Below, one piece after another: positions 1 to 56,660 of a stretch of 64,000 nucleotides of DNA (the first letter of the stretch is position 1; each line of letters starts with the position of its first letter). Below the pieces are notes generated by a model. That model had not been told where the DNA came from. It saw only the letters and a list, made by a program, of their open reading frames with translations, and did not search any database. The DNA is taken from positions 1-64,000 of the forward strand of contig NZ_AUFX01000005.1 in assembly GCF_000426725.1 (NCBI RefSeq), read 5' to 3'. Source of the DNA: Sporocytophaga myxococcoides DSM 11118 (lineage in GTDB: Bacteria; Bacteroidota; Bacteroidia; Cytophagales; Cytophagaceae). Made by a program: the position numbers and the translations under genes.

Positions 1-900
1 TCTGCAACAGGTGGAACAGCACCTTACACAGGAACAGGAACTTTCACTGGTCTTGCCGCTGGAACTTACTCTTATACAGTGACCGATGTTAATGGTTGTG
101 CTTCAGCAGTATCAGTAACAATCGCAGAGCCTGTAGCCTTGATTCCGGGTGTGCTTTCAGGTGATACTACAATTTGCGCTGGCGAGAAAGTTAATTATCC
201 GATCATTAGCGGAAACAATGCAAATAATATTACATGGCAGTACGCAGAAGCTCCTTATACTACTTGGGTTACTGCAACAAACAAAGAGTTCCCGCAGGTT
301 CAGGAAGAGCTATATAAAACAAGACAATACAGAGCTCAGGTTTTCAATTCCAGTTCATGTGGTGTGGATTATACAAATTCCATAACAATAACAGTTAATC
401 CTTTACCAAATCTAAATGCTGGAAAGGATACCACAATTGTAACAAATAAAAAGGTTCAACTGCAGGCTACTGGTGGAACAACTTATGTATGGATGGCCGA
501 AAAGAGCTTAAGTGGTCTGTTTATTGCTGATCCAGTGGCAAGTCCTTCTGAAACAACTACCTATTCAGTAGAAGCAACAAATGAGTTTGGTTGCAAAGCA
601 ACTGACGAGATTACAGTCTCAGTAGTAGGAAGAAGACCTGTTATGATTCCGAATACATTTACTCCAAATGGTGATGGTACATATGATGAATGGGTAATTG
701 AAAATATAGGAGATTATCCTGAAGCGACACTTGAAATTTATAACCGCTATGGAAGTATCATCATCAAATGGAATAAAAATATTGAGTCGTGGGATGGAAG
801 AGTAAAAGGTGTAGACATGGCAGTAGGAACGTATTTCTATATTTTAGATTTAAAAGATGGATCTGAACCAATTGCAGGATCAGTAAGTATAATCAGATAG
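1..900 (+). CDS. SprB-like adhesin, 3' part (SprB repeat, CHU_C gliding-motility C-terminal domain)
   Basis: The reading frame is open from base 1, so this is the C-terminal 299 residues of a longer surface protein. The first ~45 residues form one SprB-type repeat (TGTGTFTGL, then AGTYSYTVTDVNGC), typical of repetitive gliding adhesins. An Ig/PKD-like stretch with cysteines follows. The last ~85 residues begin IPNTFTPNGDGTYDEW and end WDGRVKG...GTYFYILDL, the gliding motility-associated CHU_C domain that acts as a type B sorting signal for the type IX secretion system. Two bases separate it from a PorP/SprF gene, the usual sprB-sprF order, so the protein is probably exported and anchored with that partner. 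The true start and repeat number lie outside the window. Confidence 0.88.
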   Translation, partial: SATGGTAPYTGTGTFTGLAAGTYSYTVTDVNGCASAVSVTIAEPVALIPGVLSGDTTICAGEKVNYPIISGNNANNITWQYAEAPYTTWVTATNKEFPQVQEELYKTRQYRAQVFNSSSCGVDYTNSITITVNPLPNLNAGKDTTIVTNKKVQLQATGGTTYVWMAEKSLSGLFIADPVASPSETTTYSVEATNEFGCKATDEITVSVVGRRPVMIPNTFTPNGDGTYDEWVIENIGDYPEATLEIYNRYGSIIIKWNKNIESWDGRVKGVDMAVGTYFYILDLKDGSEPIAGSVSIIR

Positions 901-902
901 TT

Positions 903-1997
903 ATGAAAAGAATTTTAATATTAGTGTTTTTGGTAATTGCCTGTTCTGATATTTATGGTCAGCAGATACCGCAATTTTCCCAATACATTTGGAACAGCTA
1001 TCTGATTAATCCTGCCATAGCAGGTGCAGATAATTTTGTTGAAGCCAAGGTGGGATACAGAAATCAGTGGGTGGGCCTGGAAGGTGCGCCTCGGACTGGT
1101 TACTTAACCATTCAAGGACAGAAGGGGAAGAAGTTAATTAACAGGGAAGATGTCGATGTTGTAAACAGAAGACGAACTAGAGGTTTTAAGAAACCACTAA
1201 ATGGAGTTGAAAAAGCTTTGGGATATAAAACTAGAAAATATCCTACTGCTCCTGCATCCTTCAAATTGAAGGGCCATCATGGTTTCGGCGGGCAGATTAT
1301 GCTTGACAGGATAGGCCCTTTCAGTACCCTTGGTATTTATGGATCTTATGCCTATCATATTCCTTTGGCCCGGGAAACTTATATGTCTATGGGTACCTTC
1401 CTTGGGATCAAACAATACAGAATTGATGTTGATAAAATAATACTGAATGCTAATCCTAATGCTAATCCGGTTCAGGATAATGCAATCGGTAATTCAGGAA
1501 ATCTCAGTACCATTACACCTGATGCTATGGTAGGTTTGATGGTTTATTCTCCGAAGTACTATGTAGGAATTTCAATGGATCAGATTTTCAGTAGTAAACT
1601 TAAGTTTCAGAATACTACCGCTTATGCTTTCACGCAAAACAGTACTTTGTCTCCGCACTATTTTCTGATGGGAGGTTACAGGGTAAATCTATCGGAAGAG
1701 CTTGCAGTAGTACCTTCTGCTATCGTCAGATACAATAATGGAGTCCCACCATCTGTAGATCTTACAGCAAAGTTTAATTATAAAGATCTTATCTGGGCTG
1801 GAGCTTCTATGAGGGCAAAGGATGCTTTTATAGTTCTGTTCGGAATTTCTTATAGAAATATGCTTGATATCGGTTATTCCTATGATATGACTACAAGCAG
1901 AATCCGTCAGTTTAGCAGAGGAACTCATGAAATTGTACTTTCATACAGAATGGTAAATAAACCTACAACAGGTTGTAAGCCAAGTTATGTATGGTAG
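903..1997 (+). CDS. PorP/SprF family type IX secretion outer-membrane protein
   Basis: This 364-residue protein has an N-terminal signal peptide ending near YGQQ, followed by QIPQFSQYIWNSYLINPAIAGA, which is close to the PorP/SprF family start (QxPxFSQYMxNxxxxNPAxAG). Later residues alternate in the manner of an outer-membrane beta barrel. SprF-like proteins help export and surface-anchor SprB-like CHU_C proteins. The gene starts two bases after such an adhesin, so the two are almost certainly co-transcribed partners. A basic insert at about residues 75-120 (KKLINRED...VNRRRTRGFKKP) is longer than in many relatives and may be a loop. A second paralogue lies at 53708-54640. Confidence 0.87.
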   Translation: MKRILILVFLVIACSDIYGQQIPQFSQYIWNSYLINPAIAGADNFVEAKVGYRNQWVGLEGAPRTGYLTIQGQKGKKLINREDVDVVNRRRTRGFKKPLNGVEKALGYKTRKYPTAPASFKLKGHHGFGGQIMLDRIGPFSTLGIYGSYAYHIPLARETYMSMGTFLGIKQYRIDVDKIILNANPNANPVQDNAIGNSGNLSTITPDAMVGLMVYSPKYYVGISMDQIFSSKLKFQNTTAYAFTQNSTLSPHYFLMGGYRVNLSEELAVVPSAIVRYNNGVPPSVDLTAKFNYKDLIWAGASMRAKDAFIVLFGISYRNMLDIGYSYDMTTSRIRQFSRGTHEIVLSYRMVNKPTTGCKPSYVW

Positions 1998-46038: not shown

Positions 46039-46422
46039 ATGTTCAGGTTTATACTTTTATTCATTTTGATTTTGCCTGTGAAGACTTTTGGGCAGAATTA
46101 TAAAGCAGCTGAATCCTCTGCCGATTCAATCATTCCTGCAACTTTTAAAGGGGATTTGCAGAAGTTTTTAGTGAAGACATTAAAATATCCTCCGGAAGCA
46201 GTAAAAGAAGGAATTCAGGGAAAAGTTGTTGTTGCTTTCTCAGTTGATACAAACGGAGTTATTTCAAATCCAAGGGTAGAGAAAAGTGTACATGAGTCTT
46301 TAGATAATGAAGCATTGAGGTTAATAAGATTAATGCCTCCGTGGAATCCTGCGACTCAAAATGGTAAAACTGTGATGAGTGAGAAATCGTTTCCTGTTAT
46401 ATTTCGAGTTACAGAAAAATGA
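46039..46422 (+). CDS. Secreted TonB C-terminal domain protein, first of a tandem trio
   Basis: This 127-residue protein has a signal peptide (MFRFILLFILILPVKTFGQ), then a TonB_C domain with FLVKTLKYPPEAVKEGIQGKVVVAFSVDTNG and RLIRLMPPWNPATQNG. It lacks the inner-membrane anchor and Pro-rich spacer of a full TonB, so it is a free periplasmic or outer-membrane-facing domain. Short stand-alone TonB_C proteins are common in Bacteroidota and of uncertain role. Two close paralogues follow on the same strand, which points to tandem duplication. Confidence 0.8.
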   Translation: MFRFILLFILILPVKTFGQNYKAAESSADSIIPATFKGDLQKFLVKTLKYPPEAVKEGIQGKVVVAFSVDTNGVISNPRVEKSVHESLDNEALRLIRLMPPWNPATQNGKTVMSEKSFPVIFRVTEK

Positions 46423-46451
46423 TTCATTTTATTGATTTAATTTTATAAGTG

Positions 46452-46893
46452 ATGTATAGGAATATTTTTATAATGCTCCTTTTGCTTGCATTGAATGTAA
46501 TAGCATCTGCTCAATCAGATTTTGTCCATGAAGGTTCAATAGTCAACTCCCAAAGGTGAAAGAGTTCATCCAGATAAAAAGAATTTGAAGGAACCGGTTT
46601 GTCCATACAGTCTGGAAAAGTTTATTCGTGAAAATGTTAAGTATCCTGAAGAAGGTTTAAAGAATAAGCTTGAAGGCAAAGTTTTTGTGCAATTCGTAGT
46701 AGACTCGACCGGTAAAATTATTAAACCGCGTATAATAAAAGGATTGGGCTATGGTTTTGATGAGGAAGTTTTGAGGGTGTTTCAATTAATGCCTGACTGG
46801 AACCCAGGTTGGGTGGACGGTAAACCAGCAGATTATATAAGAGTGATGCCAGTTGAGTTTCTTCTTTCTAAAAAGGTAAAAAGTAATTGTTAA
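46452..46893 (+). pseudogene. Frameshifted TonB_C protein, second of the tandem trio
   Basis: A start at 46452 encodes a normal signal peptide (MYRNIFIMLLLLALNVIASA) that runs into a stop at 46557-46559. The expected mature part continues in another frame: STPKGERVHPDKKNLKEP, then the TonB_C core FIRENVKYPEEGLKNKLEGK and VLRVFQLMPDWNPGWVDGK to 46893. The frame break must lie between the in-frame TAG near 46540 and the TGA at 46557, most simply one extra base in CCCAAAGG. It is either a decayed duplicate or an assembly error. The intact flanking copies make the reconstructed protein clear. Confidence 0.75.
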
Positions 46894-46903
46894 CGCAAAA
46901 GCT

Positions 46904-47338
46904 ATGAAAAACCTCTTGATTGTAACTTTGATACTATTTTCTGGAATAATATCAGCTCAGAATAATTCAACTGAATTTGTTCTTTCAAATTCTCAAAAAG
47001 GGAATAAAGCATCAGCAGGAAAACAAAAGAAAAAGCCAGCCACATTCAGAGGAAATCTGAAGACTTATTTTAAGCAAAATCTTCAATACCCGGAAGAGGC
47101 TTTGATAAAGGGGCTTGAAGATACTGTATTGGTTACTTTTGATATTGATATATACGGAAATATCAAAGATCCTCGTATTGCAGAGCCCGGGGAAATATTT
47201 TTTGATGAGGAAGCATTACGTGTAATAAAATTAATGCCGGCCTGGAATCCTGCTACAATCAATGGAGAGGCTGTTTCAGGATGTCAGATATTGCCAGTAA
47301 TATTCAAACTTCCTGAAAAACGTCATGCTGGAAAATGA
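46904..47338 (+). CDS. Secreted TonB C-terminal domain protein, third of the tandem trio
   Basis: This 144-residue protein has a signal peptide (MKNLLIVTLILFSGIISAQ), a short Lys-rich linker (KASAGKQKKKPA), then the TonB_C domain with YFKQNLQYPEEALIKGLEDTVLV and RVIKLMPAWNPATINGEAV. The motif KYP/QYPEEA and LMPxWNPA are shared with the two upstream paralogues. It starts 11 bases after the frameshifted copy, so the three were probably one operon. Confidence 0.8.
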   Translation: MKNLLIVTLILFSGIISAQNNSTEFVLSNSQKGNKASAGKQKKKPATFRGNLKTYFKQNLQYPEEALIKGLEDTVLVTFDIDIYGNIKDPRIAEPGEIFFDEEALRVIKLMPAWNPATINGEAVSGCQILPVIFKLPEKRHAGK

Positions 47339-51854: not shown

Positions 51855-52976
51855 TTAGCGGGGTATAGAAATATATCCGTTAATAATATTTCCTTTATCT
51901 CCTTTAATAGTATAGTAATATTGTCCCATTGGCAAATCTTGTCCATCATTTGTTTTGCCATCCCAGGTAAAATTATCACTATCGGAATAGCTGTTTTCAA
52001 ATAGAATTTTGCCTTGAATATCTTTAATTGTAATTACATTTTCTTTTGAAACAATTGGAGCTGTCCACGTCTCGCCTTTTAAAGGATAAATAATTACTTC
52101 TTTAAAGCAATTCTTTTCAGGTATTGTCAAATCTTTTCTGGAAATACATCCTTGTGCATCTTTGATTAAGAGTTGGGCAGGCCCGGAGGCTAACTCTTCA
52201 AATACTGGAAATTCCTGATAGTCGGCGCCTCCATTAAGTGAAAATTTATAGTCAGGTTTCCCACCTTTTACAGTAGCAAGGTCAATTGTAATTTTTCCTG
52301 AGCCTTTCTGGTCCTTGCAAGCTGGTTCAATATGAATAAAAGCATCTATAGCATTTGCTTTGCAGGGAACTGTGGTGCTATTCTGATCTGTATTTTTTTC
52401 CTTCACTTGCTCTGACTTTTGCCCTATGACAAGATTATCAGAATTAGAGTAAGGGATGGTTTCTGTATGTTGTAAGGTGGAATCTGGTAATCTTTGGGAA
52501 TCAAATGTTGCTGCAGGCTCATTCTGTGCAATTTGCTCAATATTCTTTTGTTGCTGAGTTACAATTTCAGCAGGAGTAACTTCTGCTTTTACTGGTAGTT
52601 CAGCGTTTCGGGATATTGGAGCTTCTTTTGAAGACGGATTTACAGGGATTACATTTGCTGCTTCAAATTCCTCAGCTTTAGGGGACAGTGCAAAGTAGGC
52701 AATACCTGAAATCAATATTGCAGCAGCTGCAAGGCTTCCATACAATTTGAAGCGGCTGGCTGTCCTTTCTTTTAAAGAAATGCGTTTTATATCTTTTCTA
52801 AGGTTTGCCAGGTTCAATTCTACGATTGCTTCATTCGCAAGCTGCTGCAATTGCACCTCTTCAGCAAGACTTTCATGCTTTTCCATCATTTCCTTAAATT
52901 CAACAAGCTCCTGTCCGGAAAGCTCCCCGTTAAGGTATTCATCTATCTTCTCAAAACTGGCTCTCAGGTTGCTCAT
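51855..52976 (-). CDS. Anti-sigma factor with SprB-repeat/CHU_C-like ectodomain
   Basis: This 373-residue protein has three parts. Residues 1-75 are a helical cytoplasmic anti-sigma region (ASFEKIDEYLNGELSGQELVEFKEM). Residues 77-97 are a membrane helix (LYGSLAAAAILISGIAYFAL). About 100-205 is a low-complexity linker. The ectodomain then shows a SprB-type repeat (about 211-287: GSGKITIDLATVKGGKPDYK, YQEFPVFEELASGPAQLLIK, AQGC) and a CHU_C-like end (about 293-373: ENVITIKDIQGKILFEN, FTWDGKTNDGQDLPMGQYYY, GYISIPR). It overlaps the upstream ECF sigma gene by 26 bases, the normal sigma/anti-sigma pairing. The ectodomain resembles T9SS surface cargo, suggesting that it senses the neighbouring SprF-like protein or secretion state. 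Confidence 0.8.
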   Translation of the reverse strand: MSNLRASFEKIDEYLNGELSGQELVEFKEMMEKHESLAEEVQLQQLANEAIVELNLANLRKDIKRISLKERTASRFKLYGSLAAAAILISGIAYFALSPKAEEFEAANVIPVNPSSKEAPISRNAELPVKAEVTPAEIVTQQQKNIEQIAQNEPAATFDSQRLPDSTLQHTETIPYSNSDNLVIGQKSEQVKEKNTDQNSTTVPCKANAIDAFIHIEPACKDQKGSGKITIDLATVKGGKPDYKFSLNGGADYQEFPVFEELASGPAQLLIKDAQGCISRKDLTIPEKNCFKEVIIYPLKGETWTAPIVSKENVITIKDIQGKILFENSYSDSDNFTWDGKTNDGQDLPMGQYYYTIKGDKGNIINGYISIPR

Positions 52977-53550
52977 GATTCATTAATTCTTTTACTAAAG
53001 GATTTTTCTTCAGCAAGCTTATCAGCTGCTGTTTGCATTTGTAGTTTCTGGTTTTTGCTCCGTTTTCAGTAGTAAAGCCCATTTTTCCACAAATTTCTTT
53101 CATAGACATTTTATGATAAATGGTGTAAGAAAGAAGTTCTTTACATCTTTCCCCCAATTCCTCAAGAACTGAGGTTAAAAGTTGGGACCTTTCTTCTGTT
53201 ATCATTAGGTCCAGTGTGTCTGACTCAGAATAGTTTATTGCAGAGGATTCCTCTTTATATACTTTTTCTTTTACTTTTCTGCGTTTCGCTTCATTGATCC
53301 ATAAGTTCCGAGCCACTGAATATATAAATGCTCCGACTTCGTAGTTGGAATCAAACCGGTTTAGTTTTACTTGTCTGTATAGAATGACAATGGCTTCCTG
53401 GAAAATATCTTCGGCATCTTCAGAATTTCCAGAATTTTCAATAATTAATTTTTTAATCCTTGGGAAATAAGTCTTGTAGAGATAAGATAATATTTGTGAA
53501 TTATCTTTCCCTGCAATAGATTCTAGGATGTAATTGTTGCTGTAAACCAC
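52951..53550 (-). CDS. ECF-type RNA polymerase sigma factor
   Basis: This 199-residue sigma factor starts at a GTG (MVYSNNYILESIAGKDNSQI). It has a sigma-2 region (YLYKTYFPRIKKLIIENSG, SEDAEDIFQEAIVILYRQ) and a sigma-4 helix-turn-helix (YTIYHKMSMKEICGKMGFTTENGAKTRNYKCKQQL). It overlaps its anti-sigma gene. On its own strand, a GGGGTTACA-N14-TTGTAGAATGATCA motif lies 17 to 53 bases upstream of its start, and the same motif recurs before a nearby surface-protein gene, so autoregulation is likely. Confidence 0.88.
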   Translation of the reverse strand: MVYSNNYILESIAGKDNSQILSYLYKTYFPRIKKLIIENSGNSEDAEDIFQEAIVILYRQVKLNRFDSNYEVGAFIYSVARNLWINEAKRRKVKEKVYKEESSAINYSESDTLDLMITEERSQLLTSVLEELGERCKELLSYTIYHKMSMKEICGKMGFTTENGAKTRNYKCKQQLISLLKKNPLVKELMNHEQPESQF

Positions 53551-53566
53551 TGAACCGGATTTTATC

Positions 53567-53603
53567 TGATCATTCTACAAATTAAGGAATTAATTGTAAC
53601 CCC
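53567..53603 (-). promoter_or_regulatory. Bipartite sigma-type promoter, copy A (sigma factor gene)
   Basis: On the minus strand this reads GGGGTTACA-N14-TTGTAGAATGATCA. It matches copies B and C in both parts and in spacing. The -35-like half is GGGGTTACA and the -10-like half includes TGTAG. Confidence 0.7.
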
Positions 53604-53707
53604 TCTGTGGATTTTTTTATAAAAGTTTCCACGTATTTTATTGAATTTTTGTAATAGATTTTCATAAAGTTTGACTAGTTTTAAAGTGCTTTGGAAGCAC
53701 TAGCTAA

Positions 53708-54640
53708 ATGAGGATTTATCTAATATTTTTACTTTTAACTTTTGGGTATATAAATTCTATTGCACAGCAGTCTGAAAACAGGTTCCTTCCTGTTCAACTC
53801 TATCAATTCTGTGAATTTTATTCTTTGACAAATCCTGCACGGAGTTCTGAAAATTTTAAATATGATGTTAATATTGGCCACAGGGGGTATGCGTATGAGG
53901 GAATAACAAATCATTTAAGTTATTTTAATGCTCAGGCTAAATTTTACCAGAAATATGATCGAATTCACAATGTAGGCCTTAGTTTTATTGGCATTTCAGA
54001 AGGACAATACCTAAAGAAAAATCAGGTAATGGTCAGTTATGCCTGGCATATGCCAGTTGGAAAGAAAAATTATCTTTCAGTAGGATTATCTTTAGGAGCA
54101 TTCAATTATGCTGTAGGTTCCACACAACTTACCGCAGGTGCGAATTCCATGACGAGTACTGGAAATGCAGGAATATTACTTTATAATGATCAGTTTTTTT
54201 GCGGAGCTTCAGTAAATCAGTTAACGAATGGAAGAGTTATACCAATTAATGAAGTGACAAGGCTTTCAAGACATTATAATGTTGTTTGTGGCAAAATTTT
54301 CCATTTAAATCATTATATTTCATTAAAATCTGCCTTGCTGATCCGATACGTAAATAAGCCGATAAATGACAGCGAAAGGCCCTTCCCACAAATATATTTT
54401 GGTACGCTCCTCGGTGGATTATTCTCTGCAGGAGCAGTATATCAGTATAGAAATGGCACGGCCCTGACCGCAGGCCTCGAAGGAATTTATCTGAATGACA
54501 ATAAATTAAACCTCTTTTTTTCTTATCAGATATATAGCGCTCATACCAGACTTAATCTGCGTACGTACGAGATTGGTTTAGGCTTCTATATAAAAGAGAA
54601 AAGAAGTCCGGACAAGTTGGAGGAAGATGACTCGGAATAA
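53708..54640 (+). CDS. PorP/SprF family type IX secretion outer-membrane protein, second copy
   Basis: This 310-residue protein has a signal peptide (MRIYLIFLLLTFGYINSIAQ), then the family opening LPVQLYQFCEFYSLTNPARS, a variant of the PxFSQYxxNxxxxNPA motif, and alternating barrel-like strands to the end (GLEGIYLNDNKLNLFFSYQI). It is a paralogue of 903-1997. It lies divergent from the ECF sigma/anti-sigma operon and 58 bases before a CHU_C-type surface protein, the canonical SprF plus cargo pairing. A 6-bp hairpin (AGTGCT/AGCACT, 53685-53701) sits just before its ATG. Confidence 0.85.
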   Translation: MRIYLIFLLLTFGYINSIAQQSENRFLPVQLYQFCEFYSLTNPARSSENFKYDVNIGHRGYAYEGITNHLSYFNAQAKFYQKYDRIHNVGLSFIGISEGQYLKKNQVMVSYAWHMPVGKKNYLSVGLSLGAFNYAVGSTQLTAGANSMTSTGNAGILLYNDQFFCGASVNQLTNGRVIPINEVTRLSRHYNVVCGKIFHLNHYISLKSALLIRYVNKPINDSERPFPQIYFGTLLGGLFSAGAVYQYRNGTALTAGLEGIYLNDNKLNLFFSYQIYSAHTRLNLRTYEIGLGFYIKEKRSPDKLEEDDSE

Positions 54641-54677
54641 AGGGTTACAATCGGAGGGCTTGACTGTAGTATTAAAT
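54641..54677 (+). promoter_or_regulatory. Bipartite sigma-type promoter, copy B (CHU_C surface-protein gene)
   Basis: AGGGTTACA-N14-CTGTAGTATTAAAT lies just after the SprF-like stop and before the ATG at 54699, giving a very short leader. It matches copies A and C in the GGGTTACA and TGTAG halves, with the same 14-base spacing. Confidence 0.6.
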
Positions 54678-54698
54678 ACACAGAAGAATGACAAAAGA

Positions 54699-56660
54699 AT
54701 GAGTAAAGGATTCTTCAAAATATTGATTTATCTCATGCTATCTTCATCAATAGTAGGATACAGCCAGGATTTACCGTGGACTGTAGAAGTGTCTACTATT
54801 GTCAAAGATATTGACATAAATATAAATCAATCTTTGTATGAGAAAGATACCTTGTTGCTCTGTGCATTTTATAGGAATTCTCCAGGTTTTCCTAAATGTG
54901 GAGGATATGCAAGAATACCAGGAGATTCTGTCCTGCGCACTTATGGTAAAGATGCTTATGCTGATGGCTTTCTGAATGACGAACAATATGAGTTCAGGGT
55001 TTATCATCCTAAAAAGGGTTGCTATATGTTACTAGGCTACTTTCCTTCATATACATTTGGAAGTCAAATTTATCAATATCTGGACAACTCATCCCTATCA
55101 GTAACCCTTCCATCAGTTGTTTATCCTCAAACTGTCAGTTGCAGGAGCAAAGAAGAATTGTTTCCAATAATATATGATAATTTACAAACTACGTTTTATA
55201 GCGCTTCAAATAGTTTGGCAATTGATTCTATAACAGGAGTTATTAATACTGAAAGGAGCAAACCTGGAGTATACGAAGTTCAAGCTCTTTCAGAAAGCTG
55301 TCTGGTAAATGATAGTTTTTCAATTACTATAACCGAAGGAAAAAATTTATTAGAGTCAAGTGATACCACTATTTGTGAAGAATCTGCCAAAATAGGTGCT
55401 TTCTATTACAATGAATTCAATACCTATGTCTGGAATACCTATGATTCTTCACAATCTATTATCGTAACGAAGCCTGGTATATATTGGGTGGAAATGGCAG
55501 ATACAATGGGATGTTTGTCACAAGACACTATGGAAGTGAATTTTTTGCCTAAAAAGATACTTGGTAATGATACAATTATTTGTGGAAATACTTTTATTAC
55601 CTTGAATGCCCCGGATGGATACAATTATCAATGGAGTACAGGGAATAAAGAGACGTCCATTACAGTAGATAGTTCAGGATTATATTGGGTTGAAACAGGA
55701 AATGAATTTTGTACCGTCATAGATTCTATTTTTATCAAATTGAAAGAACCAGTTCAATTTGATCTGGGAAAAGATACCTCTGTATTGTGCGCAGCACCAT
55801 TTTATCTGAATGGTCCTCCTGGTTATAAATATCAGTGGAATACAGGTGAAACATCTGGTACAATTCAAGTCAATAAATCGGGAATCTATTCCCTTAAGTT
55901 AACTGATGCGGATGGTTGCGCTAGTAGCGACAATATTAATGTAGATTTTTCTAAGGCTGCTGATATGCCTGATATAAATCTGGGCTCTGATACTATCATA
56001 TGTGGATCTTCATTTGTAATTAAACCAAAAATGTCAGGTCTTTTATATGACTGGAGTACAGGTGAAACAGGGGATTCTATTAAAGTCGAGACCAGCGGAA
56101 TATACACGTTAACAGTCAAAGACCAGAATGGATGCTCAAGCTCTGATGATATTTCTGTGGAATTTCAGGCTGGCTTTTCCGCAGGAAATATTTCTGTTGA
56201 AATCAATAGTCCTCCTTGCAATGAGAATATAAATGTTACCCTTTTACCTGATTCACTTGGTGGAGCTTTTCCTCTTACCTATAATTTGATAAAGAATGGG
56301 GTGGTAGTGAGCAATAATGCGAAAGGAGTTTTTGATAATGTACAGGAAGGAAATTATAATTATGAAATTATAGATTCCAGAGGCTGCAAAGCTTTAGGGA
56401 CAAACGAATCAATTATAGTAAAGAAAGTTGAACCTTGTCCGGAAAAAGTGCTTGCATTTACCGGCACATCACAACCATCTTATTTTATCGGATTTCCAGG
56501 TACTACAAAGATTTATGATATGAGTGGAATTCTTATCAAAACTATTCCTACTCCTGCTGAATGGGATGGTACCGGAAATAATGGAGAAATTGTACCAATG
56601 GGAGATTATATCATAGTCTGCGGTGAAAATCAGAAAATAGTAGTTACAGTAATTAAATAA
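54699..56660 (+). CDS. CHU_C-type secreted surface protein with four Ig-like repeats
   Basis: I start at the ATG at 54699, which opens on a signal peptide (MSKGFFKILIYLMLSSSIVGYSQ) and lies directly after the bipartite promoter; longer starts overlap the previous gene. Of 653 residues, about 216-487 hold four tandem Ig/PKD-like repeats of ~65 residues (LGNDTIICGNTFITLNAP...YQWSTG...GLYWVE; LGSDTIICGSSFVIKP). A SprB-like segment follows (about 505-570, ending DSRGCKALG). The last ~75 residues are CHU_C-like (YDMSGILIKTIP, AEWDGTGNNGEIVPMGDY). It should be exported by T9SS and held at the surface with the SprF-like neighbour. It is probably the main cargo of this locus. Confidence 0.82.
   Translation: MSKGFFKILIYLMLSSSIVGYSQDLPWTVEVSTIVKDIDININQSLYEKDTLLLCAFYRNSPGFPKCGGYARIPGDSVLRTYGKDAYADGFLNDEQYEFRVYHPKKGCYMLLGYFPSYTFGSQIYQYLDNSSLSVTLPSVVYPQTVSCRSKEELFPIIYDNLQTTFYSASNSLAIDSITGVINTERSKPGVYEVQALSESCLVNDSFSITITEGKNLLESSDTTICEESAKIGAFYYNEFNTYVWNTYDSSQSIIVTKPGIYWVEMADTMGCLSQDTMEVNFLPKKILGNDTIICGNTFITLNAPDGYNYQWSTGNKETSITVDSSGLYWVETGNEFCTVIDSIFIKLKEPVQFDLGKDTSVLCAAPFYLNGPPGYKYQWNTGETSGTIQVNKSGIYSLKLTDADGCASSDNINVDFSKAADMPDINLGSDTIICGSSFVIKPKMSGLLYDWSTGETGDSIKVETSGIYTLTVKDQNGCSSSDDISVEFQAGFSAGNISVEINSPPCNENINVTLLPDSLGGAFPLTYNLIKNGVVVSNNAKGVFDNVQEGNYNYEIIDSRGCKALGTNESIIVKKVEPCPEKVLAFTGTSQPSYFIGFPGTTKIYDMSGILIKTIPTPAEWDGTGNNGEIVPMGDYIIVCGENQKIVVTVIK

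Follow-up and report, generated by a model that had tools for sequence, protein, structure and literature searches.

A recurrent four-gene cassette joins ECF sigma factors to SprF-type carriers in Sporocytophaga myxococcoides and may sense polysaccharides across both membranes

Introduction

TonB-dependent cell-surface signalling of the FecI/FecR/FecA kind couples an extracytoplasmic function (ECF) sigma factor and an inner-membrane anti-sigma factor to an outer-membrane barrel. Clostridium thermocellum has one membrane, and its anti-sigma ectodomains contact the outside directly, with no outer-membrane carrier. ECF/anti-sigma control of polysaccharide loci is known (reviewed in PMC10766802), including several sigma/anti-sigma pairs per genome that are tied to plant-polysaccharide enzymes in C. 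thermocellum (PMC10766802), and the Dma/Das systems of Bacteroides join an ECF sigma factor to an anti-sigma factor with an N-terminal binding domain, a membrane helix, a long disordered tether and a C-terminal part directed to the outer membrane (PMC13088901). In the type 9 secretion system (T9SS), SprF-like proteins bind and anchor the type B (CHU_C) ends of cargo (PMC9143113, PMC12618676), and CHU_C-ended surface proteins occur beside PorP/SprF barrels as cargo and shuttle pairs (PMC9143113, PMC12618676, PMC12635249). Features of all of these recur in a cassette of the gliding bacterium Sporocytophaga myxococcoides DSM 11118, found in the first 64,000 nucleotides of contig NZ_AUFX01000005.1 (hereafter, the window), in which the genes for an ECF sigma factor and an anti-sigma factor lie beside those for a PorP/SprF-type barrel and a CHU_C-type surface protein.

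Results

The cassette recurs within the genome and across the order

The genome of the strain holds nine copies of the cassette, each made up of an ECF sigma factor, an anti-sigma factor with a CHU_C-like end, a divergent barrel of the PorP/SprF type and a CHU_C-type surface protein. A first-pass annotation of the window had described overlapping ECF sigma and anti-sigma genes with a divergent PorP/SprF gene and a CHU_C surface protein, and this is confirmed. The sigma and anti-sigma open reading frames (ORFs) share 26 bp, the sigma factor, which has eight paralogues in the genome (31-42% identity), belongs to the ECF family based on TIGR02937 (71.8 bits, cut-off 42.9), and the SprF-like protein matches Pfam PorP_SprF (PF11751) with 78.4 bits (cut-off 22.3). 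The end of the surface protein, missed by Pfam CHU_C in the ORF opening at 54627, is found by a leave-out profile of module surface-protein ends from which loci with the layout of the window were excluded (61.9 bits, E 2.8e-18).

Based on TIGR03519 scores, the 30 PorP/SprF family matches in the genome comprise 21 canonical members (191.8-285.9 bits) and nine divergent members (38-102.6 bits, two of them listed above the cut-off of 90.55), with the protein of the window under the cut-off at 79.4 bits. Within 1.5 kb of every one of the nine divergent SprF genes lies a sigma gene with clear similarity to that of the window. Within the same flanks of the 21 canonical genes, only L016 has a sigma match, a weak one (24% identity) to what is by look a FecI/FecR-like neighbour (L039); wider flanks were examined for the canonical genes L003 and L016. 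In one cassette the SprF-type gene is followed downstream by a 790-aa protein that by look resembles a TonB-dependent receptor, together with a small partner (L036:2283-5587).

Anti-sigma factors of this type are carried by 16 of 39 genomes, the own genome included, at 69 loci (E<=1e-30) and with up to 11 cassette copies per genome; named hosts include Sporocytophaga metagenome-assembled genomes (MAGs), Cytophaga aurantiaca and Chryseosolibacter histidini. The sigma gene adjoins all 69 loci, SprF 67 and the surface protein 66, with all four genes present at 65. In the most common layout (55 loci) sprF is divergently transcribed and the surface-protein gene follows the anti-sigma gene, while the layout of the window, where sprF and the surface-protein gene both run divergently from sigma, is uncommon (five loci); at four loci sprF precedes sigma and the surface-protein gene is divergent, one locus is fully co-directional and four are incomplete. 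Among the missing cases, L118 lies at a contig end and L148 is on a short contig with another gene at the usual place of sprF. A survey of the order (118 genomes, 16 candidates scored per genome) returned 15 genomes with anti-sigma matches, known ones included, and 18 further loci came from six newly searched genomes; L285 among them coincides with L170, and family f16 already had a representative, G033. Sigma and SprF accompany 17 of these 18, the eighteenth (L298) being a fragment without the N-terminal domain, sigma or SprF. The sprF linkage, the absence of which the first-pass annotation had listed among possible refutations of its idea, is thus supported (67/69 and 17/18 loci). At L298:6085-7015, overlapping ORFs on opposite strands have ends like those of the anti-sigma factor and the module surface protein, and look like a decayed cassette. 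Across the phylum (395 genomes), where four candidates were scored per genome so that absence carries little meaning, the anti-sigma profile gave three matches outside the order, to the SprB/CHU_C part only.

Frames are broken in the anti-sigma genes of L136, L137 and L143 and in the sprF gene of L102; all four belong to a single assembly (G003), so these are likely assembly errors. The surface-protein frame of L137 is also broken, and sprF is split at L289 (G451) too.

SprF linkage follows the CHU_C-like end

A sigma search matched 485 relatives, and the best 80 of these were kept for locus comparison. SprF lies nearby in 19 of the 20 with a CHU_C-like end, 16 of which were already among the 69 loci, and in 3 of the 60 without it, two of the three belonging to the lineage of L087. 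Four of the 60 had no recognised anti-sigma ORF. Thus 57 of the 60 related sigma loci without the end have no SprF in the stretch examined, which for some is a short contig. In a midpoint-rooted sigma tree of 93 tips, a single clade with 32 tips (local support, 0.997) contains all 29 that bear the end; its three other tips (L087, L166 and L167) lack the end and have a canonical, not a divergent, SprF. The single clade suggests that the end arose once, together with the divergent SprF, and was later lost in the canonical-SprF lineage of L087. This link between SprF and the end is an association at the level of gene content, not proof of contact.

L087 is a tenth sigma/anti-sigma pair of the own genome (L087:3252-7626; G000:C4, 245-250 kb), whose anti-sigma factor stops after the SprB-type domain and so represents a natural variant without the cargo-like end, with L166 and L167 as likely orthologues. 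Neighbours of the pair are the canonical SprF L003 and an RCC1-propeller surface protein whose CHU_C end is complete. Two other loci, L169 and L172, keep sigma, anti-sigma and SprF, and the 14.6 and 12.8 kb examined there contain no recognised CHU_C-ended surface protein. Related anti-sigma factors without the end bear other ectodomains, including a trypsin-like one by Pfam in the own genome (L090:4137-5132) and, by look, some like tetratricopeptide repeats. A trypsin-type end is also seen, by look only, in L195, L197-L202, L205, L207, L209 and others, many of them in Sphingobacterium. A 448-aa ORF in a Bacteroidales MAG (L208:3146-4492) matches both the sigma and the anti-sigma N-terminal profiles and is a possible fusion.

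The anti-sigma factor pairs a tether with a cargo-like end

In the anti-sigma factor of the window, cytoplasmic helices (residues 4-33) are followed by a membrane-spanning helix within residues 35-96, a disordered tether (about 99-204), an SprB-type domain (205-290) and the CHU_C-like end (291-373). Structure prediction agrees, giving N-terminal helices, a single long helix at 35-96 that includes the membrane span, low confidence for about 100-200 and, across 205-373, two beta domains predicted with confidence (means over blocks of ten residues, 91-98 from residue 211 onward). A hydropathy scan found the membrane helix in eight of the nine own-genome anti-sigma factors; the ninth (L037) is under the threshold and has an aligned hydrophobic stretch. 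The 66 aligned anti-sigma factors, which leave out the broken frames of L136, L137 and L143, have a tether of 102 +/- 8 residues (range, 88-128) with a column identity of 22%, versus 41-45% for the N-terminal, SprB-type and end domains.

The first-pass annotation had likened the ectodomain to T9SS cargo and described it as an SprB-type repeat with a CHU_C-like end, and profile matches support both claims. Taken alone, the matches of the protein of the window are modest: 31.8 bits for FlgD_ig, CHU_C exactly at its cut-off (27.0 of 27), SprB weak (Pfam, E 0.089) and TIGR04131 under its cut-off (26.2 of 35). Across the family (n = 66, E<=0.01), CHU_C is matched by 58, FlgD_ig by 44 and SprB by 31, and a profile built from the nine own-genome anti-sigma factors also matches the repeats of giant proteins, one of which was checked and is SprB by Pfam, and the ends of large surface proteins. 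Foldseek ranked repeats of the adhesin GhpA and PorU first, the low TM-scores being due to the simultaneous comparison of two domains and a disordered tether. The nine own-genome ends keep the strand motifs and the closing G-x-[IV]-x-[IV]-like motif of type B ends. The PNGDG loop, presumably motif A of the type B motif paper (PMC12618676), is seen, intact or nearly so, in the eight canonical ends used for comparison and in most module surface proteins (nine aligned). Based on its sequence and model, the anti-sigma factor has no cleavable Sec signal peptide, its N-terminus being a helical domain followed by an internal hydrophobic helix, and with this N-terminus and without the PNGDG loop it does not look like a T9SS substrate, even though its end is of the CHU_C type.

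The barrel and the surface protein

PF11751 matches 62 of 63 aligned SprF-type members at E<=0.001; not aligned were L036, which has an overlong start, the split or partial L102, L119 and L145, and the loci without SprF. The SprF-like protein of the window is predicted to form a barrel of long strands, and the nearest structures to this model in Foldseek are FadL proteins and, in the T9SS translocon complexes 8gl6 and 6h3i, chain F, which is presumably PorV. Gliding SprF is described as having a Cys-X-Cys motif in its periplasmic C-terminal tail (PMC12635249), and the C-terminal ends of the nine aligned own-genome divergent SprF proteins contain no cysteine. For comparison with the divergent pair, a canonical SprF gene stands directly after a canonical type B surface protein, of which only the end is present, at the left end of the window (559-1952).

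The front part of the module surface proteins varies, with leucine-rich repeats, lectin-like and immunoglobulin (Ig)-like forms. Most of the nine keep the PNGDG loop or a variant without the closing motif, the loop in the protein of the window being degenerate. The ORF of the latter opens at 54627 (677 aa, 54627-56660), and the start at 54699 is likelier, as it is followed by what is by look a signal peptide.

A shared promoter motif and the neighbouring enzymes

Of the 62 divergent pairs, 60 were used to examine the intergenic regions, with gaps of 0 and 2932 bases dropped. The pattern TTAC.{15,17}[TC]GT occurs on the sigma strand in 42 of these (shuffles: mean, 2.8; maximum, 7), the strict, -35/-10-like motif TTAC-N16-[TC]GTA in 31 (shuffles: mean, 0.3; maximum, 2), and the former pattern is on the sprF strand in a single region, with no clear housekeeping promoter motif before sprF. 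Where the surface-protein gene is divergent and separately transcribed, the motif precedes it at four of four loci, all orthologues in one genus; at L137 it lies 601 bases before the recognised ORF, ahead of the broken frame.

Beyond the cassette genes, the motif precedes 11 of 93 neighbouring genes predicted to be secreted and 3 of 144 others (Fisher p=0.003, based on a home-made secretion rule and inflated by the inclusion of orthologues), and two control patterns precede 4 and 1 of the secreted and 6 and 7 of the others, such that chance matches are not rare. Thus 11 of the 14 motif-bearing neighbours look secreted, and several are plant-polysaccharide enzymes, including GH10 xylanases (L034 and L092 by Pfam, L096 by N-terminal likeness, with no motif before the counterpart of the last in L093), rhamnogalacturonan lyases (L117, L122), a pectinesterase (L120) and pectate lyases (L122, L139). 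Of the own-genome cassettes, L031 has flanking genes of GH26 and GH44, and L037 has flanking genes of GH16 and of a GH30 type (the latter matched by its C-terminal domain), with the GH10 gene between L037 and L034.

Table 1. Features of the cassette in the window
Feature	Positions	Strand	Remarks
Anti-sigma gene	51855-52976	-	373 aa; from the ORF list
ECF sigma gene, GTG start	52951-53550	-	199 aa; TIGR02937 match
ECF-type promoter motif TTAC-N16-TGTA	53576-53599	-	begins 49 bases before the sigma start
Divergent PorP/SprF-type outer-membrane barrel gene	53708-54640	+	310 aa; PF11751; predicted barrel
Surface-protein gene (Ig-like repeats, short CHU_C-type end)	54699-56660	+	degenerate PNGDG motif

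Elsewhere in the window, at 46039-47338, three small secreted-looking proteins stand in tandem, with a sequence pattern that may be TonB-C-terminal-like.

Discussion

The cassette, its domain make-up, tether, promoter motif and neighbours are features of the sequence itself, and from them we infer a trans-envelope polysaccharide-sensing device built from T9SS type B parts, in which a T9SS carrier takes the place of the TonB receptor, a reading that on balance is somewhat probable. The T9SS would export the surface protein, which would then be anchored on a divergent SprF-type barrel of its own, while the anti-sigma factor would hold the ECF sigma factor at the inner membrane, with a tether of constrained length that would let its SprB/CHU_C-like end reach the outer membrane and dock from the periplasmic side on the barrel or the receptor complex. 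An extracellular polysaccharide, if bound by the surface protein, would alter that complex and, with the signal running inwards, the sigma factor would be freed, probably through proteolysis of the anti-sigma factor. Free sigma would then turn on its own operon, comprising sigma, anti-sigma and usually the surface protein, as well as some neighbouring secreted pectinases and hemicellulases. The choice of polysaccharides as the ligand is a best guess that follows from the varied front parts of the surface proteins and the neighbouring enzymes. A bolder form, offered tentatively and with more doubt than trust, is a two-piece receptor spanning both membranes, or 'split Dma', in which one dedicated SprF-type barrel would carry the extracellular sensor and also hold, inside or through itself, the end of the anti-sigma factor, and ligand binding outside would be passed mechanically to sigma; this would constitute a new class of surface signalling on T9SS carriers, with up to 11 copies in a genome for different plant polysaccharides.

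Several observations weigh against polysaccharide sensing through the barrel. The PNGDGxND loop is absent in all nine own-genome anti-sigma ends aligned with the eight canonical ends, and as all five type B motifs are described as required for secretion by the SprB end of Flavobacterium johnsoniae (PMC12618676), SprF may not bind the anti-sigma end. In the layout of the window the surface-protein gene stands behind sprF, the strand of which bears the motif in 1 of 60 regions, and the relaxed motif was found at only 5 of the 17 further loci. To the limits and controls of the neighbour test given above can be added that polysaccharide hydrolases lie beside only three of the nine own-genome cassettes, at two sites (the neighbours of L032, L035 and L036 being outside the Pfam scan), and that no such hydrolase is among the neighbours of the cassette in the window. 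Across the genome the motif shows no excess and does not allow a regulon to be called, the reversed control pattern being the more frequent (64 versus 50). A mirror-tree comparison of 60 of the 69 loci (dropping the four without all four genes and L102, L119, L136, L137 and L143, which are broken or partial) gave a partial r of 0.24 for the anti-sigma end and SprF (bootstrap, -0.02 to 0.43), with pairs expected to be partners also near zero (sigma and anti-sigma N-terminus, 0.04; surface-protein end and SprF, 0.05), so that it carries no weight either way.

The main rival generalises the idea of the first-pass annotation, that failure of secretion or surface assembly frees the sigma factor, into an assembly or export checkpoint where the anti-sigma end and the surface-protein end would compete for the SprF-type barrel, and sigma would report empty or filled carriers and adjust production of the surface protein. 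Such a checkpoint, which we hold to be unlikely, accords with the CHU_C-type ends on both proteins and with the wiring of the promoters, since a supply of cargo matched to an independently made carrier is expected to leave sprF mostly without the motif (1 of 60) and to place the surface-protein gene behind sigma and anti-sigma or, where it is divergent alone (four loci), behind a motif of its own. It leaves unexplained the varied front parts and the polysaccharide enzymes that share the motif, the anti-sigma end without a PNGDG loop may not fit the cargo site, and beside L169 and L172 no CHU_C-ended surface protein was recognised. Of the earlier proposal, then, the domain calls, the cargo likeness and the sprF linkage stand, and a secretion- or assembly-failure signal is possible but less favoured than ligand sensing, which fits better with the variety of the front parts and the secreted enzymes that bear the motif.

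Less probable again is direct sensing of a periplasmic ligand (oligosaccharides, for instance) by the SprB-type domain of the anti-sigma ectodomain, with the barrel and surface protein as co-inherited targets and not as signalling partners. The other ectodomains of related anti-sigma factors without the end, few of which have SprF nearby, and the retention of the SprB-type domain alone in L087 would be in keeping with this, yet SprF, which seldom shares the motif, is nearly always present, and a tether conserved in length is given no role. Docking of the end on the general T9SS translocon (SprA or PorV), reporting export traffic, appears very improbable: a type A end is described as binding inside the SprA pore on loops of PorV (PMC10994853), and PorA, a protein with a T9SS C-terminal domain, as having an impact on PorXY-SigP in Porphyromonas gingivalis (PMC7712824), but one SprA gene was found against nine cassettes, each with its own divergent SprF, and a general export sensor would have no need of a private barrel.

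If polysaccharide sensing through the SprF-type barrel is correct, signals would cross two membranes by a new route, with a private T9SS carrier as the outer-membrane half of the receptor that acts on the sigma factor, PorP/SprF proteins would gain a signalling role beyond anchoring, and the specificity of a receptor could be guessed from the neighbouring enzymes. This bears on how gliding degraders of cellulose and pectin (Cytophaga, Sporocytophaga) sense insoluble polysaccharides. An ECF sigma factor reportedly controls cellulose use in Cytophaga hutchinsonii (Wang 2019, cited in PMC12016534 and PMC7906972). For the same species, neither of two obvious SusC/SusD homologues is described as taking part in cellulose use (PMC12016534). 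As Cytophaga aurantiaca DSM 3654 is a host held in a strain collection, the cassette is open to experiment.

In the titles and abstract openings returned by searches of the open-licence PMC literature, no anti-sigma factor with a CHU_C end and no sigma-SprF cassette was found described, and the nearest known systems differ in distinct ways. The likeness to C. thermocellum, which is one of description, ends at the outer-membrane carrier that the cassette possesses. Type B cargo and SprF pairs share the surface protein and barrel, whereas the cassette has a divergent SprF subfamily, a sigma factor and an anti-sigma factor with a cargo-like end that lacks the PNGDG loop (PMC9143113, PMC12618676, PMC12635249). 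Compared with FecI/FecR/FecA, the barrel is of the PorP/SprF type and not a TonB receptor, and as FecR is not among the families matched by the 66 anti-sigma factors at E<=0.01, the cassette is not of the TonB-dependent kind. Dma has a C-terminal beta-barrel of its own (PMC13088901), whereas the anti-sigma factor of the cassette ends in two domains of about 85 residues with no barrel; in the cassette a distinct protein of the SprF type provides the barrel and is accompanied by a CHU_C surface protein. Based on the C-terminal barrel, the cassette is therefore outside the Dma family, with which it shares the tethered plan.

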